Of a DNA stretch of 64,000 nt, positions 8,495 to 63,242 are shown one piece after another. Below the pieces are notes generated by a model. The model did no database searches and was not told where the DNA came from. It was given only the letters and a program-made list of their open reading frames with translations. How positions within the stretch are numbered: position 1 is the first letter of the stretch; each line of letters opens with the position of its first letter. The DNA is from Alphaproteobacteria bacterium (GTDB taxonomy: Bacteria; Pseudomonadota; Alphaproteobacteria; ATCC43930; CGMCC-115725): NCBI GenBank assembly GCA_028871055.1, contig JAGWON010000009.1, positions 62,001-126,000 of the forward strand, written 5' to 3'. The position numbers and the translations under genes are program-made.

Positions 8495-8496
8495 GC

Positions 8497-9348
8497 TTGC
8501 TCGCTCCGGCCAAGCTCAATCTCTATCTCCATGTCGTCGGCCGCCGCGCCGACGGCTATCACCTCATCGACAGCCTCGTCGCGTTTGCCGATATCGGCGA
8601 CCAGCTGACCGCGTCGCCGGCGGACCGGCTCAGCGTCGCGGTCAGCGGCCCGTTCGCCAAGGATCTGGCTGCGATCGATCCAGCGCAGAATCTAGTCTGG
8701 CGCGCGGCGGAGCGCTTGGCGCGGGAACTGGGTCGGGCGCCGGCGGCGGCGATCATGCTGGAGAAGAATCTGCCGGTTGCCTCCGGCATCGGCGGCGGCT
8801 CGAGCGACGCGGCGGCGGCCCTCCGGTCACTCATCGCGTTGTGGCACGCGACCATCGGCGACCGGGCGCTGGCGGTGCTCGCTGCGGAGCTCGGTGCCGA
8901 CGTGCCGGTCTGTCTCGCCGGCCATGGTGCGTTCGTCGGCGGCATCGGCGAAGCGATCGAGCAGGCGCCCGCGCTGCCGCGCGCGCCGCTGGTGCTGGCC
9001 AATCCGGGCAAGGCTCTCGCCACCGCCGACGTGTTCCGGGCGCGTCGGGGTCCTTATGGCAAGGCGGCGCGCTTCGACCGCGCGCCGAAGGATCCCGTGG
9101 AGCTTGCGCGCCTTCTCGCCGCGCGCGGCAACGATCTCGATGGCGCGGCGCAGACGATCGTTCCCGAGATCGGCGAAGTGCTGGCGCAGCTCGCAGCGTG
9201 CGACGGCGCGCTCCTTGCACGCATGAGCGGCAGCGGCGCGACTTGTTTCGCGCTGTTCGCCGACGAGGGCGCGGCGCATGCCGCTGCGGCGCGGATGCGC
9301 GCCGTCAATTCCACTTGGTGGGTGGCGAACGCCCGGTTGCTGTCGTGA
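8497..9348 (+). CDS. ispE: 4-diphosphocytidyl-2-C-methyl-D-erythritol kinase
   Basis: APAKLNLYLHVVGRRADGYHLIDSLV and LPVASGIGGGSSDAAAALR GHMP motifs. Confidence 0.95.
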   Translation: MLAPAKLNLYLHVVGRRADGYHLIDSLVAFADIGDQLTASPADRLSVAVSGPFAKDLAAIDPAQNLVWRAAERLARELGRAPAAAIMLEKNLPVASGIGGGSSDAAAALRSLIALWHATIGDRALAVLAAELGADVPVCLAGHGAFVGGIGEAIEQAPALPRAPLVLANPGKALATADVFRARRGPYGKAARFDRAPKDPVELARLLAARGNDLDGAAQTIVPEIGEVLAQLAACDGALLARMSGSGATCFALFADEGAAHAAAARMRAVNSTWWVANARLLS

Positions 9349-46033: not shown

Positions 46034-46891
46034 ATGTCCAATGCGCTGAGGATCGCACACGGCAGGTTCGGGCGCGTCGCGCTCCTTGACATGGACGCGT
46101 CGCTGGTTCGTCACGCCCATCCCCATTGCCACGTCCTCATCAAGGCCGAGGGCGCCGATACGCACTTCATGGTCCGCGATCAGCTAGTGCCGCTCACCGC
46201 GAACAACGCGGTCCTGATCAACGCCTGGGAGCCGCACGCTTACGTGCATGATCCCAGCCATCCGCGTACCGTCATCCTTGCCTTCTATATTGAGCCCGGC
46301 TGGCTGTCGGGCTTTCGTCGCAACTGGGGCGCCAGTGCCGCGCCCGGCTTCTTCGAGCGTCACTCGGATTGGCTCACCGCCGCCATTCGCCGCCGGGCGA
46401 ACGAACTCGCCGCCGTGCTGATGGCGGCGCCCGACGCCGGTGAGGCGCAGGAAGCGCTGATCTCCGAATTGATGATCGCGGTAATCGAGCGCTACGCGCC
46501 GTGGCGTAGCACCATGCTACGCGATTTCGAGCCGGATGGCCGGGTCGATTATCGCATCCGCCGAGCTCTGATATCGATCCGGGGCAACAGTGCCGGCGTT
46601 ACCGACATGACCTGCCTGGCGCGCGAGGTCGGCCTGTCGCGCACCCATTTCTTCCGCCTGTTCGGCCGAACGATGGACATCAGTCCGCGCGTCTTCCTTA
46701 ATACGGTGCGCATGGAGACTGCGGTCGCCGAGGTCATGGACGGCGATACCGGCATGGCCGAGGTCAGCGACCGTCTCGGCTTCAGCGCCCCGGCGCATTT
46801 CACGCGCTTCTTCCGCGACCATGCCGGCGCACCGCCGCGCGAATTCCGCGCCATCGCGCGTCTCAACGCGCCGCACAAGATCGCGAGCTAG
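46034..46891 (+). CDS. AraC family transcriptional regulator
   Basis: CLAREVGLSRTHFFRLFGRTMDISPRVFLNTVRMETAV and VSDRLGFSAPAHFTRFFRDHAGAPPREFR double HTH. Confidence 0.92.
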   Translation: MSNALRIAHGRFGRVALLDMDASLVRHAHPHCHVLIKAEGADTHFMVRDQLVPLTANNAVLINAWEPHAYVHDPSHPRTVILAFYIEPGWLSGFRRNWGASAAPGFFERHSDWLTAAIRRRANELAAVLMAAPDAGEAQEALISELMIAVIERYAPWRSTMLRDFEPDGRVDYRIRRALISIRGNSAGVTDMTCLAREVGLSRTHFFRLFGRTMDISPRVFLNTVRMETAVAEVMDGDTGMAEVSDRLGFSAPAHFTRFFRDHAGAPPREFRAIARLNAPHKIAS

Positions 46892-46939
46892 CCGTATGGC
46901 GGTGGGCAGTGTTCCGCCGTTGATGCGGCGACAGGCGGG

Positions 46940-49918
46940 GTGTCGCCCATGGACGTGACCGCCGACGAGCCCCGGCCGTGGCTCGGCCGCTCGCTGCCGC
47001 GCGTCGAGGACGCCGCGCTGCTCATCGGACGCGGCCGCTATATCGACGATCTCGGCGTGCCACCCGGCACGCTGCATGCGGCGATCCTGCGTTCGCCACA
47101 CGGCCATGCAGAAATTGTATCGATCGACCCGACGCGCGCTCGCGCCTTGCCGGGGGTCACTGCCGTGCTTGTCGGCAGCGATGTCCAGGCCCATTCGGCC
47201 AGCCTCTTGGTTGGCGTCAAGGCGCCGATCGAATGCTGGCCGATCGCGACCGATCGCGTTCGATATGTCGGCGAGCCGGTGGCCGTGGTAGCGGCACGCG
47301 ACCGCTATGTTGCCGAGGATGCGCTCGACCTGATCGAGGTCGCTTACCGGCCTCTACCGGCGGTGATCGATCCACGCGCGGCGTTGGCGCCCGATGCGCC
47401 GGTCCTGCATCCGGGCCTCGAGGGCAATCTGGCGAGCGACCGCGTCTTCCGCTACGGCGATCCCGAGCGCGCCTTCGCCGATGCGGCGCATCGCGTCGCC
47501 ATCGAGGTCGATTATCCGCGCAGCGCCTGTACCCCGATCGAGACCTATGGCGTCGTCGCCGAATACGATCCCGGCCTCGATGCCTACGACGTGCTGGCGA
47601 ATTTCCAGGGCCCGTTCAGCATCCACGCGGTCATCGCGCGCGCTCTCAAGGTGCCGGGCAACCGGTTGCGGCTGCGCACGCCGCCGGATTCGGGCGGCAG
47701 CTTCGGCGTCAAGCAAGGGGTCTTTCCCTACATTGTGCTGATCGCGCTCGCCGCCCGCGCCACCGGCCGGCCGGTCAAATGGATCGAAGACCGGCTCGAG
47801 CACCTGGCGGCGTCCACCTGCGCCACCAACCGCTTTACGCGGCTCGAGGCGGCGGTGGCGGCGGACGGCCGTATCACCGCGCTCACCTGGGATCAGATCG
47901 AGGATTGCGGCGCCCACTTGCGCGCGCCCGAGCCGGCAACGCTCTATCGCATGCACGGCAACATGACCGGCGCCTACGACATCCGGAACGTATCGATCCG
48001 CAACCGCGTCGTGCTGACCAACAAGATGCCGACCGGCCTCAACCGCGGCTTCGGCGGCCCACAGGTCTATTTCCCGCTCGAACGGCTGATGCAGCGCATT
48101 GCGCACGAGCTCGGCCTCGACCCGCTCGACGTGATCCGCCGCAACCTGGTGCCGCGGGGCGCCTTTCCCTACCGCACCGCCAGCGGCGCGCTGCTCGATT
48201 CCGGAGATTACGCTGCGGCGATGGAATCGGCGCTGCTGCAAGGCGGCGTCGCGGAGCTAATCGCGCGGCGCGATGCAGCGCGCCGGGACGGCCGGCTTTA
48301 TGGCATCGGTTATGCCGCTGTGGTCGAGCCGAGCGTCTCCAACATGGGGTACATCACCACGGTGCTGACCGCCGCCGAACGCCGCAAGGCCGGTCCCAAG
48401 AACGGCGCGCAGTCGACCGCCACCATTGCACTCGATCCGGTCGGTTCGGTCACGGTTCACGTTGCGTCGGTGCCGCAGGGGCAGGGGCACCGCACCGTGC
48501 TGGCCCAGGTCGTGGCCGACGTGCTCGGTCTCAAGCCCGCGGAAGTGCGCGTTGTCACCGATGTTGACACGGCCAAGGACGGCTGGTCGATCGCCTCGGG
48601 CAATTATTCGAGCCGCTTTGCGCCGGCGGTGACCGGCGCCGCGCATTTAGCCGCGATGCGGCTGCGCGAGCGCCTGGCGCACATCGCCGCAGCGCAACTC
48701 AACGTGCCAGCGGTGGACGTCGTCTTCGATGGAGGTCGGGTACAGGCGCGGCGCAATCGCGACAACGCGCTCTCCTTCGCGCGCGTTGCCGCGGCCAGCC
48801 ACTGGGCACCGGGGACGCTGCCGAGCGAGGCCGATACTGCGATCCGCGAGACCGTGTTCTGGACGCCGCCAGAGTTGACGGCCCCGAACGACGCCGACGA
48901 GATCAACAGTTCGCTCTGCCACGGCTTTATCTTCGATATCTGCGCGGTCGAGATTGATCGCGTCACCGCCGAGGTCAGGATCGATCGCTATGTCAGCATG
49001 CATGATTGCGGCCGCATGCTGCATCCCGGCATGGTCGCGGGCCAAGTCAACGGCGGCTTTGCCCACGCGCTCGGCGCGGCGCTTCTCGAGGAGCATGCCT
49101 ACGGACCCGACGGCAGCCTGCTCACCGGCACGCTCGCCGACTACTTGATCCCGACCGCCATGGAGGTGCCGGAACCCCTGATCCTTCATCACGAGACGCC
49201 ATCGCCGTTGACGCCGCTCGGCGCCAAAGGCGTGGGCGAGGGGAATTGTATGTCGACGCCGGTCTGCATCGCCAATGCGGTCGCCGACGCGCTCGGCGTC
49301 GCGGACGTGTCGCTGCCGCTGCTGCCGGCACGGTTGGCCCAGCAAGTTCATGGGCCCGAGAAAGCGCCGAGGGGTAAGACGCCCGTGCGGCCGGCGGCGA
49401 AGGAGGCGGCCAGCGAGCGTCAGCTCTTCGGCGAGGGCGAGGCGTCGGTCGACGCGCCGGCGACGACGATCTGGGCGATGCTGCTCGATCCCAACGCGCT
49501 GATGGCGGTGGTGCCGGGTGCGCATGCGATCGAGAAAGTCTCGGACACATGCTTCACCGCCGAGATTACGCTGGGTATCGGCCCGGTGAAGGGCCGCTAC
49601 CGCGCGACAATGGAACTTTCGGACCTCGATCCGCCGCGCGCGCTGACCCTCACCGGCTCGGCCGATGGAGCGCTCGGCTTCGGACGCGGCACCGGCCAGG
49701 TCACGCTCCGCGAGGAAGCGCCCGGGCGCACGGTGATCGGCTATCGCTACCAAGCCGCGATTGGCGGCAAGGTCGCGTCGATCGGCGGAAGGCTGCTCGA
49801 TGGCGCTGCGCGCGTCATCATCGGCCAGTTTTTCGCCAGCCTGGCCCGTCAGGCCGGCGGTGGCGGCCGGCCGGCCGGACTTTGGGCGTGGCTGCGCCGC
49901 TTGCTGGGGTTCGCATGA
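46940..49918 (+). CDS. Xanthine dehydrogenase-family molybdopterin-binding subunit with C-terminal CoxG/SRPBCC domain
   Basis: LPRVEDAALLIGRGRYIDDL; GLNRGFGGPQVYFPLERLM; GAKGVGEGNCM (catalytic Glu region); C-terminal GEASVDAPATTIWAMLLDPNALMAVVPGAHAIEKVSDTCFTAEITLGIGPVKGRYRATMELSD. GTG start, alternative ATG at 46949. Confidence 0.93.
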   Translation: MSPMDVTADEPRPWLGRSLPRVEDAALLIGRGRYIDDLGVPPGTLHAAILRSPHGHAEIVSIDPTRARALPGVTAVLVGSDVQAHSASLLVGVKAPIECWPIATDRVRYVGEPVAVVAARDRYVAEDALDLIEVAYRPLPAVIDPRAALAPDAPVLHPGLEGNLASDRVFRYGDPERAFADAAHRVAIEVDYPRSACTPIETYGVVAEYDPGLDAYDVLANFQGPFSIHAVIARALKVPGNRLRLRTPPDSGGSFGVKQGVFPYIVLIALAARATGRPVKWIEDRLEHLAASTCATNRFTRLEAAVAADGRITALTWDQIEDCGAHLRAPEPATLYRMHGNMTGAYDIRNVSIRNRVVLTNKMPTGLNRGFGGPQVYFPLERLMQRIAHELGLDPLDVIRRNLVPRGAFPYRTASGALLDSGDYAAAMESALLQGGVAELIARRDAARRDGRLYGIGYAAVVEPSVSNMGYITTVLTAAERRKAGPKNGAQSTATIALDPVGSVTVHVASVPQGQGHRTVLAQVVADVLGLKPAEVRVVTDVDTAKDGWSIASGNYSSRFAPAVTGAAHLAAMRLRERLAHIAAAQLNVPAVDVVFDGGRVQARRNRDNALSFARVAAASHWAPGTLPSEADTAIRETVFWTPPELTAPNDADEINSSLCHGFIFDICAVEIDRVTAEVRIDRYVSMHDCGRMLHPGMVAGQVNGGFAHALGAALLEEHAYGPDGSLLTGTLADYLIPTAMEVPEPLILHHETPSPLTPLGAKGVGEGNCMSTPVCIANAVADALGVADVSLPLLPARLAQQVHGPEKAPRGKTPVRPAAKEAASERQLFGEGEASVDAPATTIWAMLLDPNALMAVVPGAHAIEKVSDTCFTAEITLGIGPVKGRYRATMELSDLDPPRALTLTGSADGALGFGRGTGQVTLREEAPGRTVIGYRYQAAIGGKVASIGGRLLDGAARVIIGQFFASLARQAGGGGRPAGLWAWLRRLLGFA

Positions 49919-50742
49919 AGCCGGCGCGCTTCGATTACGTCGCCGCCGCCAGTGCCGAGGAGGCACTCGAGGCGCTGGCGCAAGAAGGCGGCAATGCGCG
50001 CATCCTCGCAGGTGGCCAGTCGCTCCTGCCGATGCTCAACATGCGGCTGGCACGTCCCACCGTGCTGATCGACATCATGGGCGTCGACGAATGGCGAGCG
50101 GTGGACCGCGACGGCGACGTGCTGCGCATCGGCGCAGCGGTACGCCAAGTCGCGCTCGAGCAGGACCCCGACCTGGCACGGTTCCAGCCGTTGCTGGCGG
50201 CGGCGCTGCCCTGGGTCGGCCATCCACAGACCCGCAGCCGGGGCACCGTGTGCGGCTCGATCGCCCATGCCGATCCTAGCGCAGAGCTGCCGTTGGTGCT
50301 GGTCGCGCTCGGCGGCACGGTGCATCTGCGTTCGCGGCGGCGCAAGCGCGTGCTGTCGGCGCAGAATTTCTTCACCGGCATGATGTCGACGGCGCGCGAA
50401 GACGACGAATTGATCGAGGCGATTGCGCTGCCGAAAGCCCGCACCCGAACGGGTTACGCTTTCCGCGAGGTGGCTCGGCGCCACGGCGATTTCGCCATCG
50501 TCGCCTGCGCGGCGGTCGTCAACGGCGTGCGGGCACAACTGGCGGTCGGCGGCGTCGCCGACCGGCCCGCGCTATGCGAATTGCCCGCGCCGGGCGCGGC
50601 CGGACTCGATGAGGCGCTCGACGACTTCGCCTGGAGCCTCGAGGCGCGCGATGACCTCCACGCCACGGCGCGCTATCGCCGCGAACTGGTCCGCCGCCTG
50701 GGTCGCACCACGCTCGAGGAGGCCGTGCGATGCCGCGCCTGA
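49915..50742 (+). CDS. FAD-binding subunit of molybdenum hydroxylase (CoxM/XdhB-like)
   Basis: ARILAGGQSLLPMLNMRLARPTVLIDI; GHPQTRSRGTVCGSIAHADPSAELP. Confidence 0.93.
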   Translation: MKPARFDYVAAASAEEALEALAQEGGNARILAGGQSLLPMLNMRLARPTVLIDIMGVDEWRAVDRDGDVLRIGAAVRQVALEQDPDLARFQPLLAAALPWVGHPQTRSRGTVCGSIAHADPSAELPLVLVALGGTVHLRSRRRKRVLSAQNFFTGMMSTAREDDELIEAIALPKARTRTGYAFREVARRHGDFAIVACAAVVNGVRAQLAVGGVADRPALCELPAPGAAGLDEALDDFAWSLEARDDLHATARYRRELVRRLGRTTLEEAVRCRA

Positions 50743-51236
50743 GCGCTGATTGCCGCCATATGGTGAGCTTCACGCTCAACGGCGCCCCGGTCTCGGGCGA
50801 GGCCGAGCCGCGCATGCTGTTGAGTGATTTCTTGCGCTACGTCGTCGGTGCCACCGGCACACATGTCGGTTGTGAACACGGACTGTGCGGCGCGTGCACG
50901 GTCGAGATCGACGGACAGCCAGGTCGTGCCTGCCTGACGCTCGCGGTGCAGGTGCGCGGCGCGCAAATCCGTACCGTTGAGGGGTTGGCGCCCGCGCCCG
51001 ACCGGCTCTCGGTGCTGCAGGAATGCTTCCGCGAGCATCACGGGTTGCAATGCGGTTTCTGTACCCCGGGAATCCTGGTCACGCTCGACGCCCTGCTGCG
51101 CGACAACCCAGCCGCGTCCGAGCCCGAAATTCGCGAAGCGCTCGCGGGTCATCTCTGCCGGTGTACCGGCTATGTTTCGATCATGCGGGCGGCGCTCGCC
51201 GCCCAGCAGCGCCTTGGGAAGAAGACAGATGCTTGA
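50730..51236 (+). CDS. 2Fe-2S subunit of molybdenum hydroxylase (CoxS/XdhA-like)
   Basis: GCEHGLCGACTVEIDG; LQCGFCTPGILVT; LCRCTGYVSIMRA. Start may be 50760. Confidence 0.95.
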   Translation: MPRLSADCRHMVSFTLNGAPVSGEAEPRMLLSDFLRYVVGATGTHVGCEHGLCGACTVEIDGQPGRACLTLAVQVRGAQIRTVEGLAPAPDRLSVLQECFREHHGLQCGFCTPGILVTLDALLRDNPAASEPEIREALAGHLCRCTGYVSIMRAALAAQQRLGKKTDA

Positions 51237-52785
51237 TCTCGGAACCAGCTTTCTCGCCAGCGTGGCGCGCGATCCCGACGCGCTCGCGATCGTCGACGGC
51301 GACCTGCGACTCGGCTACGCGGCGTGGCTCGACAAGATCTCTTGCATCGTCGCGGGGCTCGACGCGCTCGGCCTGAAGAAAGGCGACCACCTCCTGACCG
51401 TGCTGCAGAACCGCTGGGAGGCGGCGACGCTACATTGGGCGTGCCAATTCGCCGGCATCATCCTGACGCCGCTCAATTGGCGGGTGAAGGCCGACGAGAT
51501 CGATTACTGCATCGAGGACGCTGGGGCTGCCGCGTTGGTTTACGAGGACGTATCGGCCAAAGCCGTGGCCCTGTCGCACCGCGCCGCTGCGCTGCCGCGC
51601 ATCCGTGTCGGCGCCGCTGCGCCGGGCGAGACCGCGTTCGCCGCCATGCTGGCGCAAAGCGCACCCAGGGTGACGCCGCGCGTCGATGCCGACGCCTGGT
51701 CGCTGATGCTCTATACCTCGGGCACCACATCGCGCCCCAAGGGCGTGCCGCGCCGCCACTGCGCCGAGCGCGCGGCGGCGCTGGCCCATGTCGCGCAAAA
51801 TCTCTACGCGCATGGCGAGCGTACCCTCGGCGTGATGCCGCTCTATCACACCATGGGCGTGCGGTCGCTGCTCGCCATGTCGCTGATCGGCGGTGTCTTC
51901 GTCTGCCTGCCACGCTTTGACGTGCGGGCGGCGCTCGGCCTGATCGCGCGCGAGCGCGTGACAAACCTTTATCTCGTTCCGACGCTCTATCACGATCTCG
52001 TCCACCATCCGGATTTTGCCAGGTCCGACATGCGCTCGGTGCGCAAGCTCGGCTTCGCTGGCGCGCCGATGACCGATGCCCTCTTGAAGAAGCTCGACGC
52101 GGTGTTCAAGCCCGAGGTGTTCGTGAATCACTACGGCAGTTCTGAGGTCTATACTTTCACCATCGACCAGAAGGCGGCGGCGAAACCGGGATCGGCCGGC
52201 CGCGCCGGGCTCAATCAGATGATCCGGGTGGCCAAGCTCGGCGCCAACACGCCGGCGGAGCTGGCCGGGGTCGGCAAGGAAGGCGAGATCATCGCGCTCA
52301 TGGCCGGCGACGAATCCTTCGAAGGTTATTGGCGCCGGCCCGACGCCGACGCCAAGGCGCTGCGCGACGGTTGGTATTTCACCGGCGACACCGGCTATTT
52401 CGACGCCGCCGGCGACCTGTTCGTTACCGGCCGGGTCGACGACATGATCATCACCGGCGGCGAGAACGTCTCGCCGGTCGAGATCGAAAGCTGTCTCTCG
52501 CTGCATCCGGCGGTGTCCGAGGTCGCAGTGGTGGGATTGGCCGACGAGCGTCTGGGCAAGGCGGTCACTGCCTTCATTAAGCGTGCCGCGCCGGTGACCC
52601 CGGCGGAGATCGACGAGTTCTGCCGAAAATCCGGCCTCGCCAACTTCAAACGCCCGCGCCGCGTGATCTTCGTCAGGGATATCCCAAAATCGCCGGTCGG
52701 CAAGCTGTTGCGCCGTAAGTTGGTGGCGGGCGAATACCAGCTTGCCGACGCAGTGTCGCGTGCAGAAGAGGAAGCAAAGACATGA
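51229..52785 (+). CDS. Class I adenylate-forming enzyme (acyl/aryl-CoA ligase)
   Basis: LMLYTSGTTSRPKGVPRRH; GWYFTGDTGYFDAAGDLFVTGRVDDMIITGGENVSPVEIE; SPVGKLLRRKL. Confidence 0.92.
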   Translation: MLDLGTSFLASVARDPDALAIVDGDLRLGYAAWLDKISCIVAGLDALGLKKGDHLLTVLQNRWEAATLHWACQFAGIILTPLNWRVKADEIDYCIEDAGAAALVYEDVSAKAVALSHRAAALPRIRVGAAAPGETAFAAMLAQSAPRVTPRVDADAWSLMLYTSGTTSRPKGVPRRHCAERAAALAHVAQNLYAHGERTLGVMPLYHTMGVRSLLAMSLIGGVFVCLPRFDVRAALGLIARERVTNLYLVPTLYHDLVHHPDFARSDMRSVRKLGFAGAPMTDALLKKLDAVFKPEVFVNHYGSSEVYTFTIDQKAAAKPGSAGRAGLNQMIRVAKLGANTPAELAGVGKEGEIIALMAGDESFEGYWRRPDADAKALRDGWYFTGDTGYFDAAGDLFVTGRVDDMIITGGENVSPVEIESCLSLHPAVSEVAVVGLADERLGKAVTAFIKRAAPVTPAEIDEFCRKSGLANFKRPRRVIFVRDIPKSPVGKLLRRKLVAGEYQLADAVSRAEEEAKT

Positions 52786-53576
52786 GCGACCATAATTCCC
52801 GTCTCCAGAGCCTGGACGGCTTCCGCGTCACGGTCGACGCGGCCCGCGCGCGCGCCGACGTCGTGCTCGACCGGCCGCCCTTCAACGTCATCACCATGCC
52901 GCAGCGCGACCAGATCCGCCGCGTCTTCGAGGCGCTCGATGAGGACGAACGGGTGCGCGTCATCGTGCTCGGCGCCGCCGGCGAGCATTTCTCCTCGGGT
53001 GGTTACATCAAAGGCTTCATGGAGGCTTCGCCCGAGCACGTCTCGAAACTCGCCTGGAACATCGCCGCGCCGGCGCGGTGCAGCAAGCCGGTGATCGCGG
53101 CCAATCGCGGCTTTTGCTTCGGCGTCGGCTTCGAGATTTCGCTCGCCTGCGATTTCCGCTTGACTTCGGAAACCTGCTTTTACGCGCTTCCGGAACAGAA
53201 GCTGGGGCAAATCCCGGGCTCCGGCGGCTCGGCGCGGCTCCAGAAGATTGTCGGCATCACCCGCACCAAGGACATCGTCATGCGCTCAAAGCGCATACCG
53301 GCGAAGCAGGCCTATGAATGGGGTCTTGCCACCGAGCTGGTGCCGGATGCCAAGCTCGAAGCGGCGACTGATGCGCTGGCGCAGGAGCTGGTCGGCTTTT
53401 CGCCGCTGGCGCAACGCACAGCAAAGAAGTTGCTCAACGACACTGAGGACGCGTCGCTCTCGGTCGCGATCGAGCTCGAGGGCCATTGCTACAGCCGGCT
53501 GCGCACATCGGAGGACTTCAAGGAAGGCGTCGCGGCATTTCACGAAAAACGCACGCCCAAGTTCCGCGGCGTTTGA
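52782..53576 (+). CDS. Enoyl-CoA hydratase/isomerase family protein
   Basis: DRPPFNVITMPQRDQIRRVFEAL; CSKPVIAANRGFCFGVGFEISLACDFRL; LPEQKLGQIPGSGGSARL. Confidence 0.92.
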   Translation: MSDHNSRLQSLDGFRVTVDAARARADVVLDRPPFNVITMPQRDQIRRVFEALDEDERVRVIVLGAAGEHFSSGGYIKGFMEASPEHVSKLAWNIAAPARCSKPVIAANRGFCFGVGFEISLACDFRLTSETCFYALPEQKLGQIPGSGGSARLQKIVGITRTKDIVMRSKRIPAKQAYEWGLATELVPDAKLEAATDALAQELVGFSPLAQRTAKKLLNDTEDASLSVAIELEGHCYSRLRTSEDFKEGVAAFHEKRTPKFRGV

Positions 53577-53592
53577 CCGAACGGAGGATCCA

Positions 53593-55026
53593 ATGCCGGA
53601 CCAGTCCCGCCTCAACGCGCCGGTGGCTGCGCCAGTGACCACTTTGCGCGGCTGGCTTGACAATCTGGCCGAGCATGGTCGCTTGGCGGTGATCCGGCCG
53701 GATGTCGGCTTGCGCTTCGAGCTCGCCGCGATCTCGAAGCGGCTCGACGGCAGCAAGGCGACGTTCTTCCCACACCCAGGTGGCCATGCGATTCCTGTCG
53801 TCTCGGGGCTGTTCGGCGATCGGGCCTGGGTGGCGGATGCGATGGGCGTGACGGCCGATGCCGTCCTGGCGCGCTTCAGCGCCGCGGTGGCGAATCCACT
53901 GCCCTGGCGAGAGGTGAAATCGGCACCGGTCCAGGAAATCGTCCACGACCAGGTTGACCTGCTGCGCCTGCTGCCGATTCCGACGCATAACGAACTCGAC
54001 AGCGGGCCCTATATCAGCGCCGGGCTGCTGATCTCGCGCAACCCGCGCACTGGCGTGCAGAACGTCGCCATCCACCGCTGCCAGGTGAACGCGCCGGACG
54101 AGCTCGGCATTCTCTTGTTGCCGCGCCATACCCTTGCCTTCTACGAGGCGGCGGAGCGGGATGCCGAGGCGCTCGAGATCGCCATTGTCATCGGCGTCGA
54201 TCCGCTGACCTCGCTCGCCTCGCAGTCGATCGCGCCGCTCGATTTCGACGAACTCACCATCGCCGGCGCGCTGCACGGTGAGCCGATCGAGGTGGTGAAA
54301 TGCCAGACCAACGCGGTGCGCGTGCCGGCTAGCGCCGAGATCGTGCTCGAAGGCCGCATTCTGCCGCACCGGCGCGAACCCGAAGGCCCATTCGGCGAGT
54401 TCCCGCAATACTACGGCGAACGTGCGAAACGCCACGTCGCCAAGATCGACCGCATCACCCATCGCCGCGACGCGATCTTCCATACCATCGTCGGCGGAGC
54501 GAACGAGCATCTTCTTCTGGGCGCGATCCCGCGCGAGGCGACGCTGCTCGGCCACCTGCGCCGCAACTTCCCGAACGTGCTTGACGTGCATCTTTCAATG
54601 GGCGGCGTTGGGCGCTACGTGCTCTATGTCAAGCTGCACAAGCGTCAGGAGGGCGAGGCGAAGAACGTGATCATGGGCGCCTTCGCCGGACATTACGACA
54701 TAAAGCACGTCATCGTGGTCGACCAGGACGTCGACATCCACAATTGGCGCGAGGTCGAATGGGCGGTCGCGACGCGCGCCCAGGCGGACCAGGATCTGGT
54801 CATAGTCGCCAACGCTCAGGGCTCGAAGCTCGATCCCTCGTCGCACGATGGCGTCAGCGCCAAGATGGGTATCGACGCGACCGTGTCGCTCTCGGCACCC
54901 GCCGGGAAATTCAAGCGTATTTATGTGCCGGGCGAGGAAAGCGTCGATCTGGCAGCGGTCGTGGATACCAAGATGGGCGGCGACTGGCGCCACGCGAGGG
55001 ATGGGCAGGGCCAACGAACGAAATGA
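53593..55026 (+). CDS. UbiD family (prenylated-FMN) decarboxylase
   Basis: TGVQNVAIHRCQVNAPDELGILLLPRHTLAFY; VPASAEIVLEGRILPHRREPEGPFGEFPQYYGE; AIPREATLLGHLRRNFPNVLDVHL. Confidence 0.93.
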   Translation: MPDQSRLNAPVAAPVTTLRGWLDNLAEHGRLAVIRPDVGLRFELAAISKRLDGSKATFFPHPGGHAIPVVSGLFGDRAWVADAMGVTADAVLARFSAAVANPLPWREVKSAPVQEIVHDQVDLLRLLPIPTHNELDSGPYISAGLLISRNPRTGVQNVAIHRCQVNAPDELGILLLPRHTLAFYEAAERDAEALEIAIVIGVDPLTSLASQSIAPLDFDELTIAGALHGEPIEVVKCQTNAVRVPASAEIVLEGRILPHRREPEGPFGEFPQYYGERAKRHVAKIDRITHRRDAIFHTIVGGANEHLLLGAIPREATLLGHLRRNFPNVLDVHLSMGGVGRYVLYVKLHKRQEGEAKNVIMGAFAGHYDIKHVIVVDQDVDIHNWREVEWAVATRAQADQDLVIVANAQGSKLDPSSHDGVSAKMGIDATVSLSAPAGKFKRIYVPGEESVDLAAVVDTKMGGDWRHARDGQGQRTK

Positions 55027-55151
55027 GACTTCTAGGTAAGTACGATGACCGCTCCATGATCTACTCTATGGGCATGGCGCCGCCTGTTGGAACCTGACAG
55101 GCACAAAGAACGCCGCACAATAAACCACGAATGATAGGGGGAAAAACGGGC

Positions 55152-56468
55152 ATGTCGAGCACCGCTGGAACCACGAGCGTAGCCTGGCCGGTCGGCAAGA
55201 AACAGATGGTGACGGCGATCATCGCCTCGTCGCTGGGCTGGGCTCTCGATCTTTTCGACCTCTTCATCCTGCTCTACGTCGCGCCGATCGTCGGCAAGCT
55301 GTTTTTCCCGTCGGCCTTTCCGACACTCTCGCTGGCGGCAGTCTATGCCTCCTTCGCCGTCACGCTGCTGATGCGGCCTTTCGGCTCGGCGCTGTTTGGG
55401 TCCTACGCCGACCGCTTCGGCCGTCGCGGCACGATGATCGTCGCAGTCGTCGGCGTCGGCATCTCCACGGCGCTGTTCGGCGCGCTGCCGACCATCGATC
55501 AGATCGGCGCCGCGGCCCCGATGATCTTCCTCGTCCTGCGGCTGGTCCAAGGCCTGTTCGTCGGCGGCGTGGTCGCCTCGACCCATACCATCGGCACCGA
55601 ATCTGTCCCACCCTACTGGCGCGGCGCGATGTCGGGCCTGATCGGCGGCGGCGGCGCCGGCATCGGCGCGTTGTTGGCCTCGATCGTCTATTTCATCACC
55701 ACCGAGGCATTCCCTGGCGACCTTTACGCCGTGTGGGGTTGGCGCTGCATGTTCTTCTCCGGGATTCTCAGCTCGATCCTGGGATTCTTCATCTTCAGCA
55801 GCCTCGAGGAATCGCCCATTTGGGCGGAGCTTGCGGCCAAGCGTAGTCAGGTGATGAAGGCACCGGTGCGCGCGCTGTTCTCGCGCGAATATCTTCCGGT
55901 GCTTCTTGTCAACCTGATGATGACCGTCGGCGGCGGCGCAGGCTATTACCTGACCTCGGGCTATCTGCCGGCCTTCCTCAAGGTCGTGAGCAAGATTCCG
56001 AGCAGTTCGGCGTCGCTGATCTTGATCGCTGGAAGCTTCATTGCGATCATCGCGTCGATCACGGCCGGCCACCTGAGCACGTTGTGGGGACGCAAGCGCA
56101 CGCTGCTGATCCTGGCGCTGATTCGGATCGTGCTGCTGCCGCTGTGCTACCTCGAGATGGCGAATACCAGTGACATCGCGACGCTTGCATTCTGGGGGCT
56201 GCTGCTGACCTTCTTCGGCAACGCGGGCTACGCACCGCTGTTGATCTTCCTCAACGAGCGCTTCCCGACCGCGATGCGTTCGACCGGCACCGGCCTGTCG
56301 TGGAATATCGGCTTCGCGATCGGCGGCATGATGCCGATCTTCGTCTCGTTGTCCTCGGCGACGCCGGCCGATCTGCCGAAGATGCTGACGATCTTCGTCT
56401 TCGGGATTTCGGTGCTGTTCCTGCTCGGGGCGCTGGTCATCCCGGAGACCAGGGGCAACTTCAAGTAA
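55152..56468 (+). CDS. MFS transporter, metabolite:H+ symporter type
   Basis: SSLGWALDLFDLFILLYVAPIVG; FGSYADRFGRRGTMIV; about 12 hydrophobic segments. Confidence 0.9.
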   Translation: MSSTAGTTSVAWPVGKKQMVTAIIASSLGWALDLFDLFILLYVAPIVGKLFFPSAFPTLSLAAVYASFAVTLLMRPFGSALFGSYADRFGRRGTMIVAVVGVGISTALFGALPTIDQIGAAAPMIFLVLRLVQGLFVGGVVASTHTIGTESVPPYWRGAMSGLIGGGGAGIGALLASIVYFITTEAFPGDLYAVWGWRCMFFSGILSSILGFFIFSSLEESPIWAELAAKRSQVMKAPVRALFSREYLPVLLVNLMMTVGGGAGYYLTSGYLPAFLKVVSKIPSSSASLILIAGSFIAIIASITAGHLSTLWGRKRTLLILALIRIVLLPLCYLEMANTSDIATLAFWGLLLTFFGNAGYAPLLIFLNERFPTAMRSTGTGLSWNIGFAIGGMMPIFVSLSSATPADLPKMLTIFVFGISVLFLLGALVIPETRGNFK

Positions 56469-56484
56469 CCGGCGGGCAGGCGGC

Positions 56485-57243
56485 ATGGGACGGCTGAACG
56501 GGCGGGCTATCATCGTCACCGGTGCGGCGCAGGGCATCGGCGCCGCCTATGCCAAGGCGCTTGCAGCCGAGGGCGCGCGCCTTGGCCTCTGCGACCTGCA
56601 AGTGCCCGATTCCACCGTCGCGGTGATCAAGCAGGCCGGCGGCGACGCCTTTGGCATGGCCTGCGACATCACCGACGGCAAGGCGGTGGGCCGGCTCGTC
56701 CAGGCCACCGAAAAGGCCTTCGGCGGGGTGCAGGGCCTAGTCAACAACGCGGCGCTGTTCGGCAACCTGCCGCTGAAACGCATCGAGGAAATCGAGTCCG
56801 CGGAATTCGACCGCGTCATGTCGGTTAATGTCCGCGGCTCGTTCGAATGCGTGAAGGCGGTGCTGCCGGTGATGCGGCGCCAGCGCTACGGCAAGATCAT
56901 CAATGTTGCCTCGGGCACCGTGTTCAAGGGCACGCCGATGATGCTCCACTACGTCGCGTCGAAAGGGGCAATCGTCGCCCTGACGCGCAGCGTCGCGCGC
57001 GAATGCGGCGACGACGGCATCCGCTGCAACTGCCTCGCGCCCGGCCTGACCATGTCCGAGAACGTGCGCAGCAACCCGGCTTGGGCCGACGCAATCGTCA
57101 AGGCCAACATCGCCAGCCGTTGCATCAAGCGCGAAGCGACGCCCGACGATCTGTTGGGCACGCTGGTGTTCCTGGCGTCCGCCGATAGCGATTTCATGAC
57201 CGGTCAGACTGTCGTGGTGGACGGCGGCTCGGTCACCCATTAA
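56485..57243 (+). CDS. SDR family oxidoreductase
   Basis: IIVTGAAQGIGAAYAKALAAEGA; VNNAALFG; YVASKGAIVALTRSVARE; TGQTVVVDGGSVTH. Confidence 0.94.
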   Translation: MGRLNGRAIIVTGAAQGIGAAYAKALAAEGARLGLCDLQVPDSTVAVIKQAGGDAFGMACDITDGKAVGRLVQATEKAFGGVQGLVNNAALFGNLPLKRIEEIESAEFDRVMSVNVRGSFECVKAVLPVMRRQRYGKIINVASGTVFKGTPMMLHYVASKGAIVALTRSVARECGDDGIRCNCLAPGLTMSENVRSNPAWADAIVKANIASRCIKREATPDDLLGTLVFLASADSDFMTGQTVVVDGGSVTH

Positions 57244-57264: not shown

Positions 57265-58233
57265 TCAACCCGACCGATAAAGCGGTAGCTTGGTGCCGGC
57301 GGCGGTGCGCTCGACCACGACGTCGCGCCGAAACCGGAAGAGCTTCGCCGGCCGTCCGCCGGTCGCGGTCGAAACCTTGCCGGTTTCCTCGACCAACCCC
57401 TGTTGTTCGATGAGGCGGCGGAAGTTCTGCTTGTGGAGACGCTGCCCGGCCAGCGCCTCGACCGCGCACTGCAATTGAAAGAGCGTGAAGCTTGCCGGCA
57501 TCAGCTCGAACACCACCGGCCGGTATTTGATCTTGGCGCGCAGCCGGGCGATGCCGGTGGCGAGGATGCGGCGGTGGTCGTGCATCATCGGCATTCCGAG
57601 GGCGAGGGTGCCGTCCGCGGATGGCCTGCTTTCCGCCTCGGGCACGAGCCCCGCTTCCCACAGCAGCTCGTAGCGTTGGAGCACGAACTCCTCATTCCAA
57701 CCGCGCCCCGACGTTGCAAAGGCGACCTCGATGCGTTCGCGCCGTTCACGTTTCAGCGGCTCCGGCCCTTGCCGCACCCATGCCCGCAACCGCGGCACGA
57801 TCGCGCTTGCGATCAGCCGCGGCGATCCGCGCCGCCAGTCCTCCCAGGGAAAATAGCGATACCAGTTGTGCCACGCGGCTTCCGCGCCATCGGCGCCGGC
57901 GCGTTCGCGCGTCAGGCCGAGATAGCTGATCGAAATCAGGCGCTCGATCGTTCCCGCGCGCGTGCGCTCGCGATCGGCGAAGGTATAGAGCTGCTCGACA
58001 TAACCCAGCGCATGCCCGGTCTGGTCCTCGACCCACGAACGCACGCCACTCTGCAAGGTGCGATGGCGCGATTGCAGCGGACCCGCGGGCAGGAGCTGGC
58101 CGCCGTGCAGCGCGAGCACGCGCGGCTCATCGGCGGTAACGGCGACGATGACCGCCGTCAGTTCGACGGCAAGCGCGCTGGTCGCCGGCTCGGTACCGGG
58201 TTCGGGCCTGCGCTCGAGGTCGAGTCGGGTCAT
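57265..58233 (-). CDS. nadQ: NUDIX-like transcriptional regulator of NAD synthesis, NadQ/NrtR type
   Basis: Degenerate NUDIX N-terminus (LTAVIVAVTADEPRVLAL), C-terminal winged helix (FTLFQLQCAVEALAGQRLHKQNFRRLIEQQGLVEETGK), divergent from nadABC. Confidence 0.8.
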   Translation of the reverse strand: MTRLDLERRPEPGTEPATSALAVELTAVIVAVTADEPRVLALHGGQLLPAGPLQSRHRTLQSGVRSWVEDQTGHALGYVEQLYTFADRERTRAGTIERLISISYLGLTRERAGADGAEAAWHNWYRYFPWEDWRRGSPRLIASAIVPRLRAWVRQGPEPLKRERRERIEVAFATSGRGWNEEFVLQRYELLWEAGLVPEAESRPSADGTLALGMPMMHDHRRILATGIARLRAKIKYRPVVFELMPASFTLFQLQCAVEALAGQRLHKQNFRRLIEQQGLVEETGKVSTATGGRPAKLFRFRRDVVVERTAAGTKLPLYRSG

Positions 58234-58312
58234 GTGTTCGCGCCTTCGCCGCCTATTACGCCATAGGGCGGAGCGGCGCGCCATCCGGCGGCCGCGGCGG
58301 TCTTGACAGCCA

Positions 58313-58333
58313 TTATGTTCAACCCTAGCATAA
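58313..58333. promoter_or_regulatory. Candidate NadQ operator 1: TTATGTTC-AACCC-TAGCATAA
   Basis: Imperfect 8-N5-8 palindrome between nadQ and nadA. Confidence 0.65.
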
Positions 58334-58374
58334 CTTCGGTAATGGGCGTTCGCGCCCGTTTTCTTTGCCACCTG

Positions 58375-58395
58375 AAATGCTCAGAAGGAGCATAA
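58375..58395. promoter_or_regulatory. Candidate NadQ operator 2: AAATGCTC-AGAAG-GAGCATAA
   Basis: Perfect ATGCTC/GAGCAT core with the same 8-N5-8 architecture; ends 1 nt before the nadA ATG and includes its SD. Confidence 0.65.
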
Positions 58396-58396
58396 T

Positions 58397-59368
58397 ATGC
58401 TGGATACGATCACCCTCGAGAGGCTTTACCAGCGCGTGCGCCAGGCCATTCCGCCGGTCGAATGGCCGGTCTTCGCCGACGACATCGCGGCCATCCTGGC
58501 GCTGAAGCAGGCGCGCAACGCCGTCATCCTGGCGCACAACTACCAGACACCGGAGATCTACCACTGCGTCGCCGACATCACCGGCGACAGTCTCGCTCTG
58601 GCGCGCGAAGCGGCGAAAACCGCCGCACGCACCATCGTCCTGGCTGGCGTGCACTTCATGGCGGAGACCGCCAAGCTCCTCAATCCCGACAAGACGGTGT
58701 TGATCCCCGATCTGCATGCCGGCTGCTCGCTGGCCGGCTCGATCACCGCCGCCGACGTGCGGCTGCTGCGCCAGCGCTATCCCGGCGTGCCGGTGGTCAG
58801 CTACGTCAACACCTCCGCCATGGTGAAAGCGGAATCCGACATCTGCTGTACCTCGGGCAACGCGAAGAGAGTCGTCGAATCGCTCGGCGTATCGCGCGTC
58901 ATCATGCTGCCCGACGAATATCTGGCGCAGAATGTGGCGGCCGAGACGGGAGTCGAGATCGTCGCCTGGCGCGGTCACTGCGAAGTGCACGAGCGCTTCA
59001 CGGCGTCGGAAATCCGCTCGCTCCGCGCGGAGCATCCGGGCATTGTCGTGCTTGCCCATCCTGAATGCCCTCCCGACGTCGTCGCCGAGGCCGATTTCGC
59101 CGGCTCGACCGCGGCGATGTCGAATTACGTCGCCACGAAACATCCGGCGCGCGTCGTGCTCATGACGGAATGCTCGATGAGCGACAATGTCGCGCTCGAG
59201 CATCCCGAGACGGCGTTCGTGCGGCCGTGCAACCTCTGCCCGCACATGAAGCGCATCACCCTGTCCAACATCCGTCATGCGCTCGAAACCATGACGCACG
59301 AGGTGACGATCGATCCGCGCATCGCCGTTCCGGCGCGCCGTGCCGTCGAGCGCATGCTGGCGGCGTGA
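58397..59368 (+). CDS. nadA: Quinolinate synthase
   Basis: [52 protein letters not shown]. Confidence 0.96.
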
Positions 59369-59374
59369 GCCCAG

Positions 59375-60922
59375 ATGGATTCGATCTCACAGACCTTCGT
59401 CGGTTGCCCGGTCGTGATCGGTGCCGGCATTGCCGGATTGATGACGGCGCTGCATCTCGCCCCCGAGCCGGTCATCGTCTTGGCCAAGGCGCCGCTCGGA
59501 TCGGGTTGCGCCAGCGGCTGGGCGCAAGGCGGCATCGCCGTCGCAGTTGGTGAAGACGACGATCCTGTGCGCCATGCCGCCGACACCCTTGCTGCCGACG
59601 GGCTATGCGACCAGGCGGTGGTGCGGCGGATCACCGCCGCCGGCCCAGCGGCTCTCGCCGAGCTCGTCCGCCGCGGCGTCGTCTTCGACCGTGCACCGGC
59701 CGGGCCTTACAAGCTCGGTCTTGAGGGCGGTCATGGCCGTCGCCGTATCGTGCATGCCGCGGGCGACGGAACCGGGCGGGCGATCATGATGGCGCTGATC
59801 GAGGCGGTGCGACGGACGCCATCGATCACCGTGCTCGAAGGCGTCGACGCGCGCAGGCTGACCGTCGAGGACGGCGCCGTCGCGGGCGTGCTCGCGGTCG
59901 CGGCGGATGGACTGCGGATCCTGCCAAGCGCACGCGTGGTGATCGCGACCGGCGGCATCGGCGGACTCTATCGTGAAACGACCAACCCGCTCTCGGCGAT
60001 CGGCCAGGGCCTGGTCCTGGCCGCTCGAGGCGGCGCGGCGCTCGCCGATATGGAGTTCGTCCAGTTCCATCCGACGGCACTTGATGCCGGTCTCGATCCG
60101 ATGCCGCTGGTGAGCGAGGCGGTGCGCGGGGAAGGGGCGCTGCTCGTCGATGAGGCGGGAAACCGGTTCATGGTCGATTATCCGCGCGCGGAGCTCGAGC
60201 CGCGCGACGTCGTGTCTCGCGCGGTATGGCGCGAGTCCGCTGTCGGCCGCCGCGTCTTCCTCGATGCGCGCGGCGTGCTCGGCGGCCGCTTCGCCGAGCG
60301 CTTCCCGGGCATTGCCGCGGCGTGTTGCGCCGCCGGCATCGATCCGGCGGTCGATCCGATCCCGATTCGCCCGGCCGCGCACTATCACATGGGCGGAATT
60401 GCCGTCGACGCGGCGGCACGCAGCTCGATCGCCGGGCTGTGGGCGGTGGGCGAAGCCGCGGCGAGTGGCCTCCACGGCGGCAATCGCCTGGCGAGCAACT
60501 CACTGCTCGAAGCCTGCGTCTGCAGCCACGCGGTCGCGGACTCCGTTGCCGGCGCGGCGTCGCGGCCGCCGCGCCTCCGGACGGCCGGCGTCTCGTATCT
60601 CCCGCTGTCGCCACGGGCCGAAAAGGTGCGCCGGATCATGGCAGAGCACGTCGGCGTGTTGCGCGACCGCCGCGGGTTGGCCGCGGCGATCGGCGCGCTG
60701 GCGCCGCTCGCCTTTGCCTCCGGTCTGGAGGCAGATCCGGCCCTCGTCGGCCTCTTTATCGCGGTGGCGGCGCTGCAGCGGGCGGAGAGCCGCGGCAGTC
60801 ATAGCCGAACAGATTTTCCCGCCCACTCGCCCGACGGTGCGCGCCGCTCGTTGCTTCGGCTTGCGGACGTGGAGCGCGCGGCACTCGACGCCGTCGACGA
60901 CCGCGTCTCGTCCGGAGCGTGA
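59375..60922 (+). CDS. nadB: L-aspartate oxidase
   Basis: VVIGAGIAGLMTALHLAPEPVIVLAKAPLGSGCASGWAQGGIAVA; HYHMGGIAVDAAARSSIAGLWAVGEAAASGLHGGNRLASNSLLEACV. Confidence 0.96.
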   Translation: MDSISQTFVGCPVVIGAGIAGLMTALHLAPEPVIVLAKAPLGSGCASGWAQGGIAVAVGEDDDPVRHAADTLAADGLCDQAVVRRITAAGPAALAELVRRGVVFDRAPAGPYKLGLEGGHGRRRIVHAAGDGTGRAIMMALIEAVRRTPSITVLEGVDARRLTVEDGAVAGVLAVAADGLRILPSARVVIATGGIGGLYRETTNPLSAIGQGLVLAARGGAALADMEFVQFHPTALDAGLDPMPLVSEAVRGEGALLVDEAGNRFMVDYPRAELEPRDVVSRAVWRESAVGRRVFLDARGVLGGRFAERFPGIAAACCAAGIDPAVDPIPIRPAAHYHMGGIAVDAAARSSIAGLWAVGEAAASGLHGGNRLASNSLLEACVCSHAVADSVAGAASRPPRLRTAGVSYLPLSPRAEKVRRIMAEHVGVLRDRRGLAAAIGALAPLAFASGLEADPALVGLFIAVAALQRAESRGSHSRTDFPAHSPDGARRSLLRLADVERAALDAVDDRVSSGA

Positions 60923-60926
60923 ATCG

Positions 60927-61775
60927 ATGACCGTCCTGCCGCTGCCGACGATCATGGTCGAGCCTCTGGTGCGCGCGGCGCTGCTCGAAGATCTGGGTCG
61001 TGCCGGCGACATCACGACCGACGCGATCGTGCCGCCCGGCGCCCGCGCCGAAACCGCGCTGGTTGCGCGGGGGGCCGGCGTGGTGGCTGGGCTCGATTGC
61101 GCCCTCATGGCGTTTCGGCTGATCGAGCCCGCGCTCGCGGCCGAAATTGCCCGACCGGACGGCAGCGCCGTCGCCGGCGGCGACGTTATCGCGACGATTT
61201 CCGGTCCGACGCGCGGCATCCTGTCGGCCGAGCGCGTGGCGCTCAACTTCGTCTGCCATTTGAGCGGTATCGCCTCGGCGGCGGCGGCGATCGTACAGTC
61301 GATCAAGGGACACCGCGCGCACCTCGTTTGCACGCGCAAGACGATACCGGGCCTGCGCGCGCTGCAGAAATATGCCGTCCGCGTCGGCGGCGGGTTCAAT
61401 CATCGTTTCGGCCTCGATGACGGCGTGCTGATCAAGGACAATCACGTTGCCGCCGCCGGCAGTCTCGAGGCGGCGATCAAGCGCGCCCGCGCCGCCATCG
61501 GCCACCTTGTCAAAATCGAGCTCGAGGTTGACACACTGCAACAGCTCGAGGAGGCGCTCCGCCTTCCGGTCGATGCCGTGCTGCTCGACAACATGAGCCT
61601 CGACGATCTGCGCAGCGCGGTGGCGATGACCGCAGGCCGGTTCGCCACTGAGGCCTCGGGCCGTATCACGCCGGAGACCGCGCCCGCGGTGGCGGCGACC
61701 GGCGTCGATCTGCTGTCGAGCGGATGGCTCACGCACAGCGTCACGGCGCTCGATATCGGCCTCGATTGGCGCTGA
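60927..61775 (+). CDS. nadC: Nicotinate-nucleotide pyrophosphorylase (carboxylating)
   Basis: ALLEDLGRAGDITTDAIVPPGA; CTRKTIPGLRALQKYAVRVGGGFNHRFGLDDGVLIKDNH. Confidence 0.96.
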   Translation: MTVLPLPTIMVEPLVRAALLEDLGRAGDITTDAIVPPGARAETALVARGAGVVAGLDCALMAFRLIEPALAAEIARPDGSAVAGGDVIATISGPTRGILSAERVALNFVCHLSGIASAAAAIVQSIKGHRAHLVCTRKTIPGLRALQKYAVRVGGGFNHRFGLDDGVLIKDNHVAAAGSLEAAIKRARAAIGHLVKIELEVDTLQQLEEALRLPVDAVLLDNMSLDDLRSAVAMTAGRFATEASGRITPETAPAVAATGVDLLSSGWLTHSVTALDIGLDWR

Positions 61776-61838
61776 CGACCAAGATGGCCTCGGCACGCAG
61801 TATCGCTTGCGATTTCGGCGGTTTTCGCCGATTGATCC

Positions 61839-63242
61839 GTGGCCATGGCTGACTTGGCCCAATCCTGCGACGTGCTGGTGGCGGGCGGCGGCAATGCGGC
61901 GCTCTGCGCTGCCATCACCGCGCGCGAGGCCGGCGCGACCGTCCTGCTCGCCGAGTATGCGCCGTGCGATTTCCGCGGTGGCAACAGCCGCCATACCCGG
62001 AATTTCCGCGTTATGCACGGCGCGCCGACGGCGACGCTGACCGAAGCCTATGGCGAGGATGAATATTGGGACGATCTGCGGCGTGTCACCGCGGGCGAGA
62101 CCGACGAAGCGCTGGCGCGGCTGACCATCCGCGGCTCGGCGGCGGCCATGCCGTGGATGGAGCGCCACGGCGCACGATTCCAGCCGTCACTGACCGGTAC
62201 GCTCAGCCTGTCGCGCACGAACGCGTTCTTTCTGGGCGGCGGCAAGGCGCTGCTCAATGCCTATTATCGCGCGGCGGAGCGGCTCGGCGTTTCGATCCTT
62301 TACGGCGCCGAGGTGCGGGAGCTGCATCTCCGGGACGGCGCGATCGAGTCCGTCGCCGTCGATATTGGCGGAACGACCGCGACCGTGCGCGCCAAGTCCG
62401 TCGTGGTCGCATCGGGAGGCTTTCAGGCGAACATCGATTGGCTCCGGCAATATTGGGGACCGGCGGCCGACAATTTCCTGATCCGCGGCACGCCCTATGC
62501 CACAGGACGCGTTCTGCGCAATCTGCTCGATCAGGGCGTGATGCCGGTCGGCGATCCGACGCAATGCCACGCCGTCGCCATCGACGCGCGCGCGCCGAAA
62601 TTCGACGGCGGGATCGTGACACGCCTCGATGCCGTGCCGTTCAGCATCATGGTCAATCGCGACGGGCGGCGCTTCTACGATGAGGGCGAGGATCTATGGC
62701 CCAAGCGCTATGCCATCTGGGGCCGTCTGATCGCGCAACAGCCGGATCAGATCGCCTATGCGATCACCGATGCGAAGGCGCTGACTCTGTTCATGCCGAC
62801 GATGTTTCGGGCGATCACGGCGGCGTCGGTTGGCGAGCTCGCGGGCAAACTCGGCCTCGATGCGGCGGTGCTCGCCAATACGGTGCGGACATACAATGCG
62901 GCGGTCCGGCCAGGTGCCTTTAATGACAAGGTTTTCGACGATTGTCGGACGGAAGGGCTGACGCCACCCAAGTCGCATTGGGCGCAGCCGATCGACACGC
63001 CGCCCTACCATGCCTATCCGCTGCGGCCGGGAATCACCTTCACCTATCTTGGCGTAAAGGTGGATGATCGGGCGCGCGTTCTGATGACGGGCGGGCGGGC
63101 AACACGCAACCTCTTTGCCGCCGGCGAGATCATGGCGGGTAACGTCCTGGGCCGCGGGTATCTGGCGGGATTCGGCATGACCATCGGCACGGTGTTCGGG
63201 CGGATCGCCGGGGTGGAGGCCGCGACGCATGCATGCCACTGA
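61839..63242 (+). CDS. tcuA: FAD-dependent tricarballylate dehydrogenase TcuA
   Basis: DVLVAGGGNAALCAAITAREAGATVLLAEYAP; RGGNSRHTRNFRVMH; followed by tcuB-like gene. Start may be 61845. Confidence 0.88.
   Translation: MAMADLAQSCDVLVAGGGNAALCAAITAREAGATVLLAEYAPCDFRGGNSRHTRNFRVMHGAPTATLTEAYGEDEYWDDLRRVTAGETDEALARLTIRGSAAAMPWMERHGARFQPSLTGTLSLSRTNAFFLGGGKALLNAYYRAAERLGVSILYGAEVRELHLRDGAIESVAVDIGGTTATVRAKSVVVASGGFQANIDWLRQYWGPAADNFLIRGTPYATGRVLRNLLDQGVMPVGDPTQCHAVAIDARAPKFDGGIVTRLDAVPFSIMVNRDGRRFYDEGEDLWPKRYAIWGRLIAQQPDQIAYAITDAKALTLFMPTMFRAITAASVGELAGKLGLDAAVLANTVRTYNAAVRPGAFNDKVFDDCRTEGLTPPKSHWAQPIDTPPYHAYPLRPGITFTYLGVKVDDRARVLMTGGRATRNLFAAGEIMAGNVLGRGYLAGFGMTIGTVFGRIAGVEAATHACH

Follow-up and report, generated by a model that had tools for sequence, protein, structure and literature searches.

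A nine-gene alphaproteobacterial operon that almost certainly belongs to the hmf/psf pathway of furan acid breakdown

Furan acids (5-hydroxymethylfurfural [HMF], furandicarboxylate, and furoate) derive from heat-treated plant sugars. In the published pathway, HmfD makes furoyl-CoA, HmfABC hydroxylates furoyl-CoA, and HmfF yields furoate from furandicarboxylate; the lactone opening that is also part of the scheme has no agreed enzyme, and HmfE is only proposed to hydrolyse 2-oxoglutaroyl-CoA (PMC6678421, PMC6604932, PMC12064950). Three described systems are closest to the locus reported here. Cupriavidus basilensis HMF14, compared through the papers, carries hmfABCDE and hmfFGH, that is, the Trudgill furoate pathway with an HMF branch. 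Pseudomonas umsongensis GO16 has an hmf/psf cluster that has been dissected by deletions, and Pseudomonas pseudoalcaligenes CECT 5344 has hmfABCDE, a major facilitator superfamily (MFS) transporter, and an AraC activator that is required for growth on furfural (PMC6678421).

The locus lies in a 64,000-nucleotide stretch of alphaproteobacterial DNA (the window), where nine genes, all on the + strand, occupy positions 46034 to 57243:

46034..46891, + strand: araC, AraC-family regulator (AraC_binding and HTH_18 domains)
46940..49918, + strand: hmfA, molybdenum large subunit of 2-furoyl-CoA dehydrogenase with a fused C-terminal CoxG domain (MoCoBD_1/2 and COXG)
49915..50742, + strand: hmfB, FAD subunit of 2-furoyl-CoA dehydrogenase (FAD_binding_5, CO_deh_flav_C; synteny)
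50730..51236, + strand: hmfC, 2Fe-2S subunit of 2-furoyl-CoA dehydrogenase (Fer2, Fer2_2; synteny)
51229..52785, + strand: hmfD, 2-furoyl-CoA synthetase (AMP-binding)
52782..53576, + strand: hmfE, crotonase-fold protein, proposed 2-oxoglutaroyl-CoA hydrolase (ECH_1)
53593..55026, + strand: hmfF, predicted UbiD-family, prFMN-dependent 2,5-furandicarboxylate decarboxylase (UbiD N, middle, and C domains; PDB matches; His 308)
55131..56468, + strand: hmfT-like MFS transporter (metabolite/H+ symporter model, below its cut-off)
56485..57243, + strand: psfG-like short-chain dehydrogenase/reductase (SDR)

A sequence-only reading of this DNA had listed the same gene content at the same positions, and the domains found in each of the nine genes bear it out. 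Its description of the six genes from the hydroxylase large subunit to UbiD as overlapping or nearly contiguous is likewise accurate: hmfA/hmfB and hmfD/hmfE share ATGA overlaps, hmfB/hmfC and hmfC/hmfD also overlap, and 16 nt separate hmfE from hmfF. Gaps of about 104 nt and 16 nt follow between hmfF and the MFS gene and between the MFS and SDR genes. The start of hmfA may be GTG 46940 or ATG 46949, and 50760 is a possible alternative start for hmfC. The base composition of the cluster is unremarkable. No NCBIfam model scored above its cut-off for hmfA to hmfE, and hmfF reached only the general UbiD family model; the names hmfA to hmfF were therefore taken from gene neighbourhood, solved structures, and papers. 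Downstream of the cluster (57265-63242) lie a 368-aa gene on the - strand, which reads like a Nudix/NrtR-type regulator (a tentative name, the gene having no NCBIfam match), and then nadA, nadB, nadC, and the tricarballylate dehydrogenase gene tcuA, all four named by NCBIfam.

The window UbiD is HmfF by comparison, with a predicted activity as 2,5-furandicarboxylate decarboxylase. Over residues 19 to 457, its best matches among solved structures are 6h6v (469 bits) and 6h6x (465 bits). The record of 6h6v bears a generic molecule name; we take these structures to represent HmfF, the Pelotomaculum thermopropionicum enzyme that decarboxylates furandicarboxylate. The next structure family, that of the indole-carboxylate decarboxylase 7p9q, scored 209 bits. 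Residue H297 of HmfF, numbered 296 in the PDB chain as printed, is key for furan specificity and is replaced by Asn in the pyrrole enzyme (PMC7976604). The corresponding residue of the window protein (P0001) is H308, and this position holds His in all 85 HmfF-type sequences at least 58% identical to the window protein and differs in 26 of 29 other UbiDs. The position of Arg 343 is Arg in all 85 sequences and that of Arg 316 is Arg or Lys, and all three positions vary among the 29 other UbiDs. In the three UbiD paralogues of the window's own genome, Gln, Thr, or Ser replaces the specificity His.

These comparisons also bear on which substrate the cluster serves. UbiD enzymes handle several heteroaromatics, and the decarboxylase of pyrrole-2-carboxylate is itself a UbiD (PMC7976604), so that another heteroaromatic acid with a five-membered ring, such as pyrrole-2-carboxylate or thiophene-2-carboxylate, could be the substrate of a related pathway with the same kinds of enzymes. 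We consider this very improbable, however: the pyrrole-2-carboxylate enzyme PA0254 scored 83 bits against the window UbiD, compared with 469 for 6h6v, it has Asn where HmfF and the window protein have His, and the operon contains orthologues of hmfT and psfG. A hydroxybenzoate or phthalate pathway, with enzymes of the 4-hydroxybenzoyl-CoA reductase or phthaloyl-CoA decarboxylase type, deserves still less credence, to the point of being nearly negligible. The molybdenum hydroxylase subunits do match 4-hydroxybenzoyl-CoA reductase models above chance, but every such match falls far under its curated cut-off (385.6 versus 994.6 bits for the large subunit); phthaloyl-CoA decarboxylases reached only 70 bits against the window UbiD, and both gene order and partner genes agree with hmf loci.

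Gene order was compared across 80 loci that the window UbiD, used as the query, retrieved from named genomes. At least one relative of hmfA to hmfE lay within the fetched flank of 63 of these 80 HmfF loci. All five genes were present on one strand in 41, drawn from several proteobacterial classes, and every one of the 41 kept the same order, which excludes a chance arrangement. In the window, hmfA, hmfB, hmfC, hmfD, and hmfE are likewise contiguous, in this order, and on one strand. The sequence-only reading had proposed such a neighbourhood comparison; its outcome upholds the cluster as a real one, and the agreement with known hmf loci removes the label "uncharacterised."

The lower-pathway proteins resemble their counterparts in these loci. 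HmfA is mostly 58 to 79% identical to HmfA of hmf loci, and its orthologue in the P. umsongensis type strain, recovered in pieces at contig ends, shows 51 to 63%; partial HmfA matches in several loci reflect cut contigs or split matches. HmfD is 61% identical to its P. umsongensis counterpart, the next best ligase of that genome reaching 33%. HmfE shares 63 to 83% with HmfE of hmf loci where the gene is uncut (a value of 57% in locus L028 was set aside as an artefact of a cut contig or split match), and within the family its orthologues stand at 75 to 83% versus at most 39% for other crotonases. Since this protein corresponds to HmfE, for which hydrolysis of 2-oxoglutaroyl-CoA is the activity proposed in the literature, it is probably a thioesterase rather than a hydratase.

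The architecture of HmfA varies among loci. CoxG is fused to HmfA in the window and in Pseudomonas. In L015, L024, L026, L036, L047, and L007, the HmfA match ends near residue 800 to 820 with hmfB or hmfD directly after it, and the C-terminal CoxG domain seems to be absent. In L024 and L026 it is hmfD that follows hmfA, and hmfB and hmfC were not detected in the fetched flank; the furoyl-CoA dehydrogenase there would be without its usual small subunits, or these would be encoded elsewhere.

The remaining genes are best read against P. umsongensis. The locus of its type strain, DSM 16611 (L071), contains the end of hmfE, the SSF-family transporter gene hmfI, hmfF, an MFS gene, an SDR gene, the aldehyde dehydrogenase gene psfA, and genes for a LysR regulator, UbiX, an alpha/beta hydrolase, an XdhC-type protein, and an AraC regulator. 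Strain GO16, which belongs to this species, has the same gene list in its hmf cluster (PMC12064950). A 297-aa + strand frame at L071:8437-9330 was rejected as antisense, the true hyd gene lying on the - strand at 8473-9309. The order hmfF-hmfT-psfG is shared with the window, at identities of 65, 58, and 68%, respectively. The MFS gene adjacent to hmfF in GO16 has been shown to encode an importer of 5-hydroxymethyl-2-furoate (HMFCA), and psfG of that strain measures 759 bp (PMC12064950). The window transporter probably imports HMFCA or a related furan acid, and the window SDR, also of 759 bp and aligned over 100% of its length, is probably an HMFCA dehydrogenase. The AraC protein is 40% identical over 98% to that of L071, where araC stands at the far end instead of being the first gene, and 54 to 62% identical to AraC proteins whose genes adjoin hmfA in several loci from Alphaproteobacteria; it is a probable activator of furan genes.

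The departures from the described clusters are minor and consist of one compact operon and the lack of several linked companions. With C. basilensis HMF14 the window shares the five lower-pathway genes, identically ordered, as well as HmfF and a transporter. In contrast to that strain, the window has hmfF, the transporter gene, and the SDR gene after hmfE in one operon, without linked hmfG or hmfH, and a psfG-type SDR takes the place of the HmfH oxidase. Unlike P. pseudoalcaligenes CECT 5344, which has no hmfF and fails to grow on HMF, it carries hmfF. GO16 also links hmfI, psfA, psfB, psfC, hyd, and psfD, whereas the window operon has no linked psfA, hmfG/psfC (UbiX), psfD (XdhC type), or hyd. 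Elsewhere in the genome there are one unlinked XdhC/CoxI gene, one GMC oxidoreductase gene, one unlinked hyd homologue (42%), and unlinked aldehyde dehydrogenase homologues of PsfA (28 to 38%), the best of them (38%) on another contig. One aldehyde dehydrogenase homologue (G000:C23:48782-50221) has a single in-frame TAG and is either a pseudogene or the product of a sequencing error. Only two PF02441 genes were found, both unlinked: one UbiX-like gene beside another UbiD gene and one likely CoaBC. A dedicated UbiX-type partner is the usual companion of HmfF but not strictly defining, and because prFMN can be supplied by a shared UbiX, the absence of a linked hmfG/psfC does not exclude HmfF membership. 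A tentative, and on balance rather unlikely, extension is a streamlined operon that is entered at 5-hydroxymethyl-furoate or furandicarboxylate and draws its UbiX, XdhC, and aldehyde dehydrogenase entirely from housekeeping genes, the lactone-opening step being possibly nonenzymatic or recruited.

Taken as an hmf/psf operon, the cluster almost certainly serves to degrade furan acids completely, as far as 2-oxoglutarate. Comparison shows the gene identities, their order, and the furan-specific residues, and we infer each enzymatic step in this organism from characterised relatives. HmfT would import 5-hydroxymethyl-2-furoate, and the PsfG-like SDR would oxidise it to 5-formyl-2-furoate, from which an aldehyde dehydrogenase with its gene outside the operon would make 2,5-furandicarboxylate. 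HmfF, with prFMN, would decarboxylate this acid to 2-furoate, HmfD would form 2-furoyl-CoA, and HmfABC (Mo/FAD/2Fe-2S) would hydroxylate it at C5. The ring lactone may then yield 2-oxoglutaroyl-CoA, either spontaneously or through an unlinked hydrolase, and HmfE would release 2-oxoglutarate. A furan acid is probably the signal on which the AraC protein activates the operon. Of the chemistry proposed earlier, uptake, prFMN-dependent decarboxylation, CoA activation, and molybdenum-dependent hydroxylation of a heteroaromatic CoA ester are retained, hydration is probably wrong, and the order is revised, decarboxylation coming first. The sequence-only reading had recognised no named pathway, although furoates were already among its suggested substrates, and had held that a match to a characterised pathway would overturn it; the UbiD structures, the papers, and the P. 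umsongensis locus all provide that match.

Among 40 relatives, HmfF-type proteins (at least 59% identity) were found in two members of the family and in one further member of the class. The three genomes from within the genus, one of them only 85% complete, had none. Five genomes of the family encode HmfE orthologues (75 to 83%), and three of these five lack HmfF. The cluster has the patchy distribution to be expected of an accessory catabolic operon.

In sum, this cluster is an ordinary member of the pathway described in C. basilensis HMF14 and P. umsongensis GO16. It comes off the list of unknown clusters, its small, one-operon gene set being a convenient example and no more, and is assigned to a known pathway with biotechnological uses in furan detoxification of lignocellulose hydrolysates and in furandicarboxylate production.
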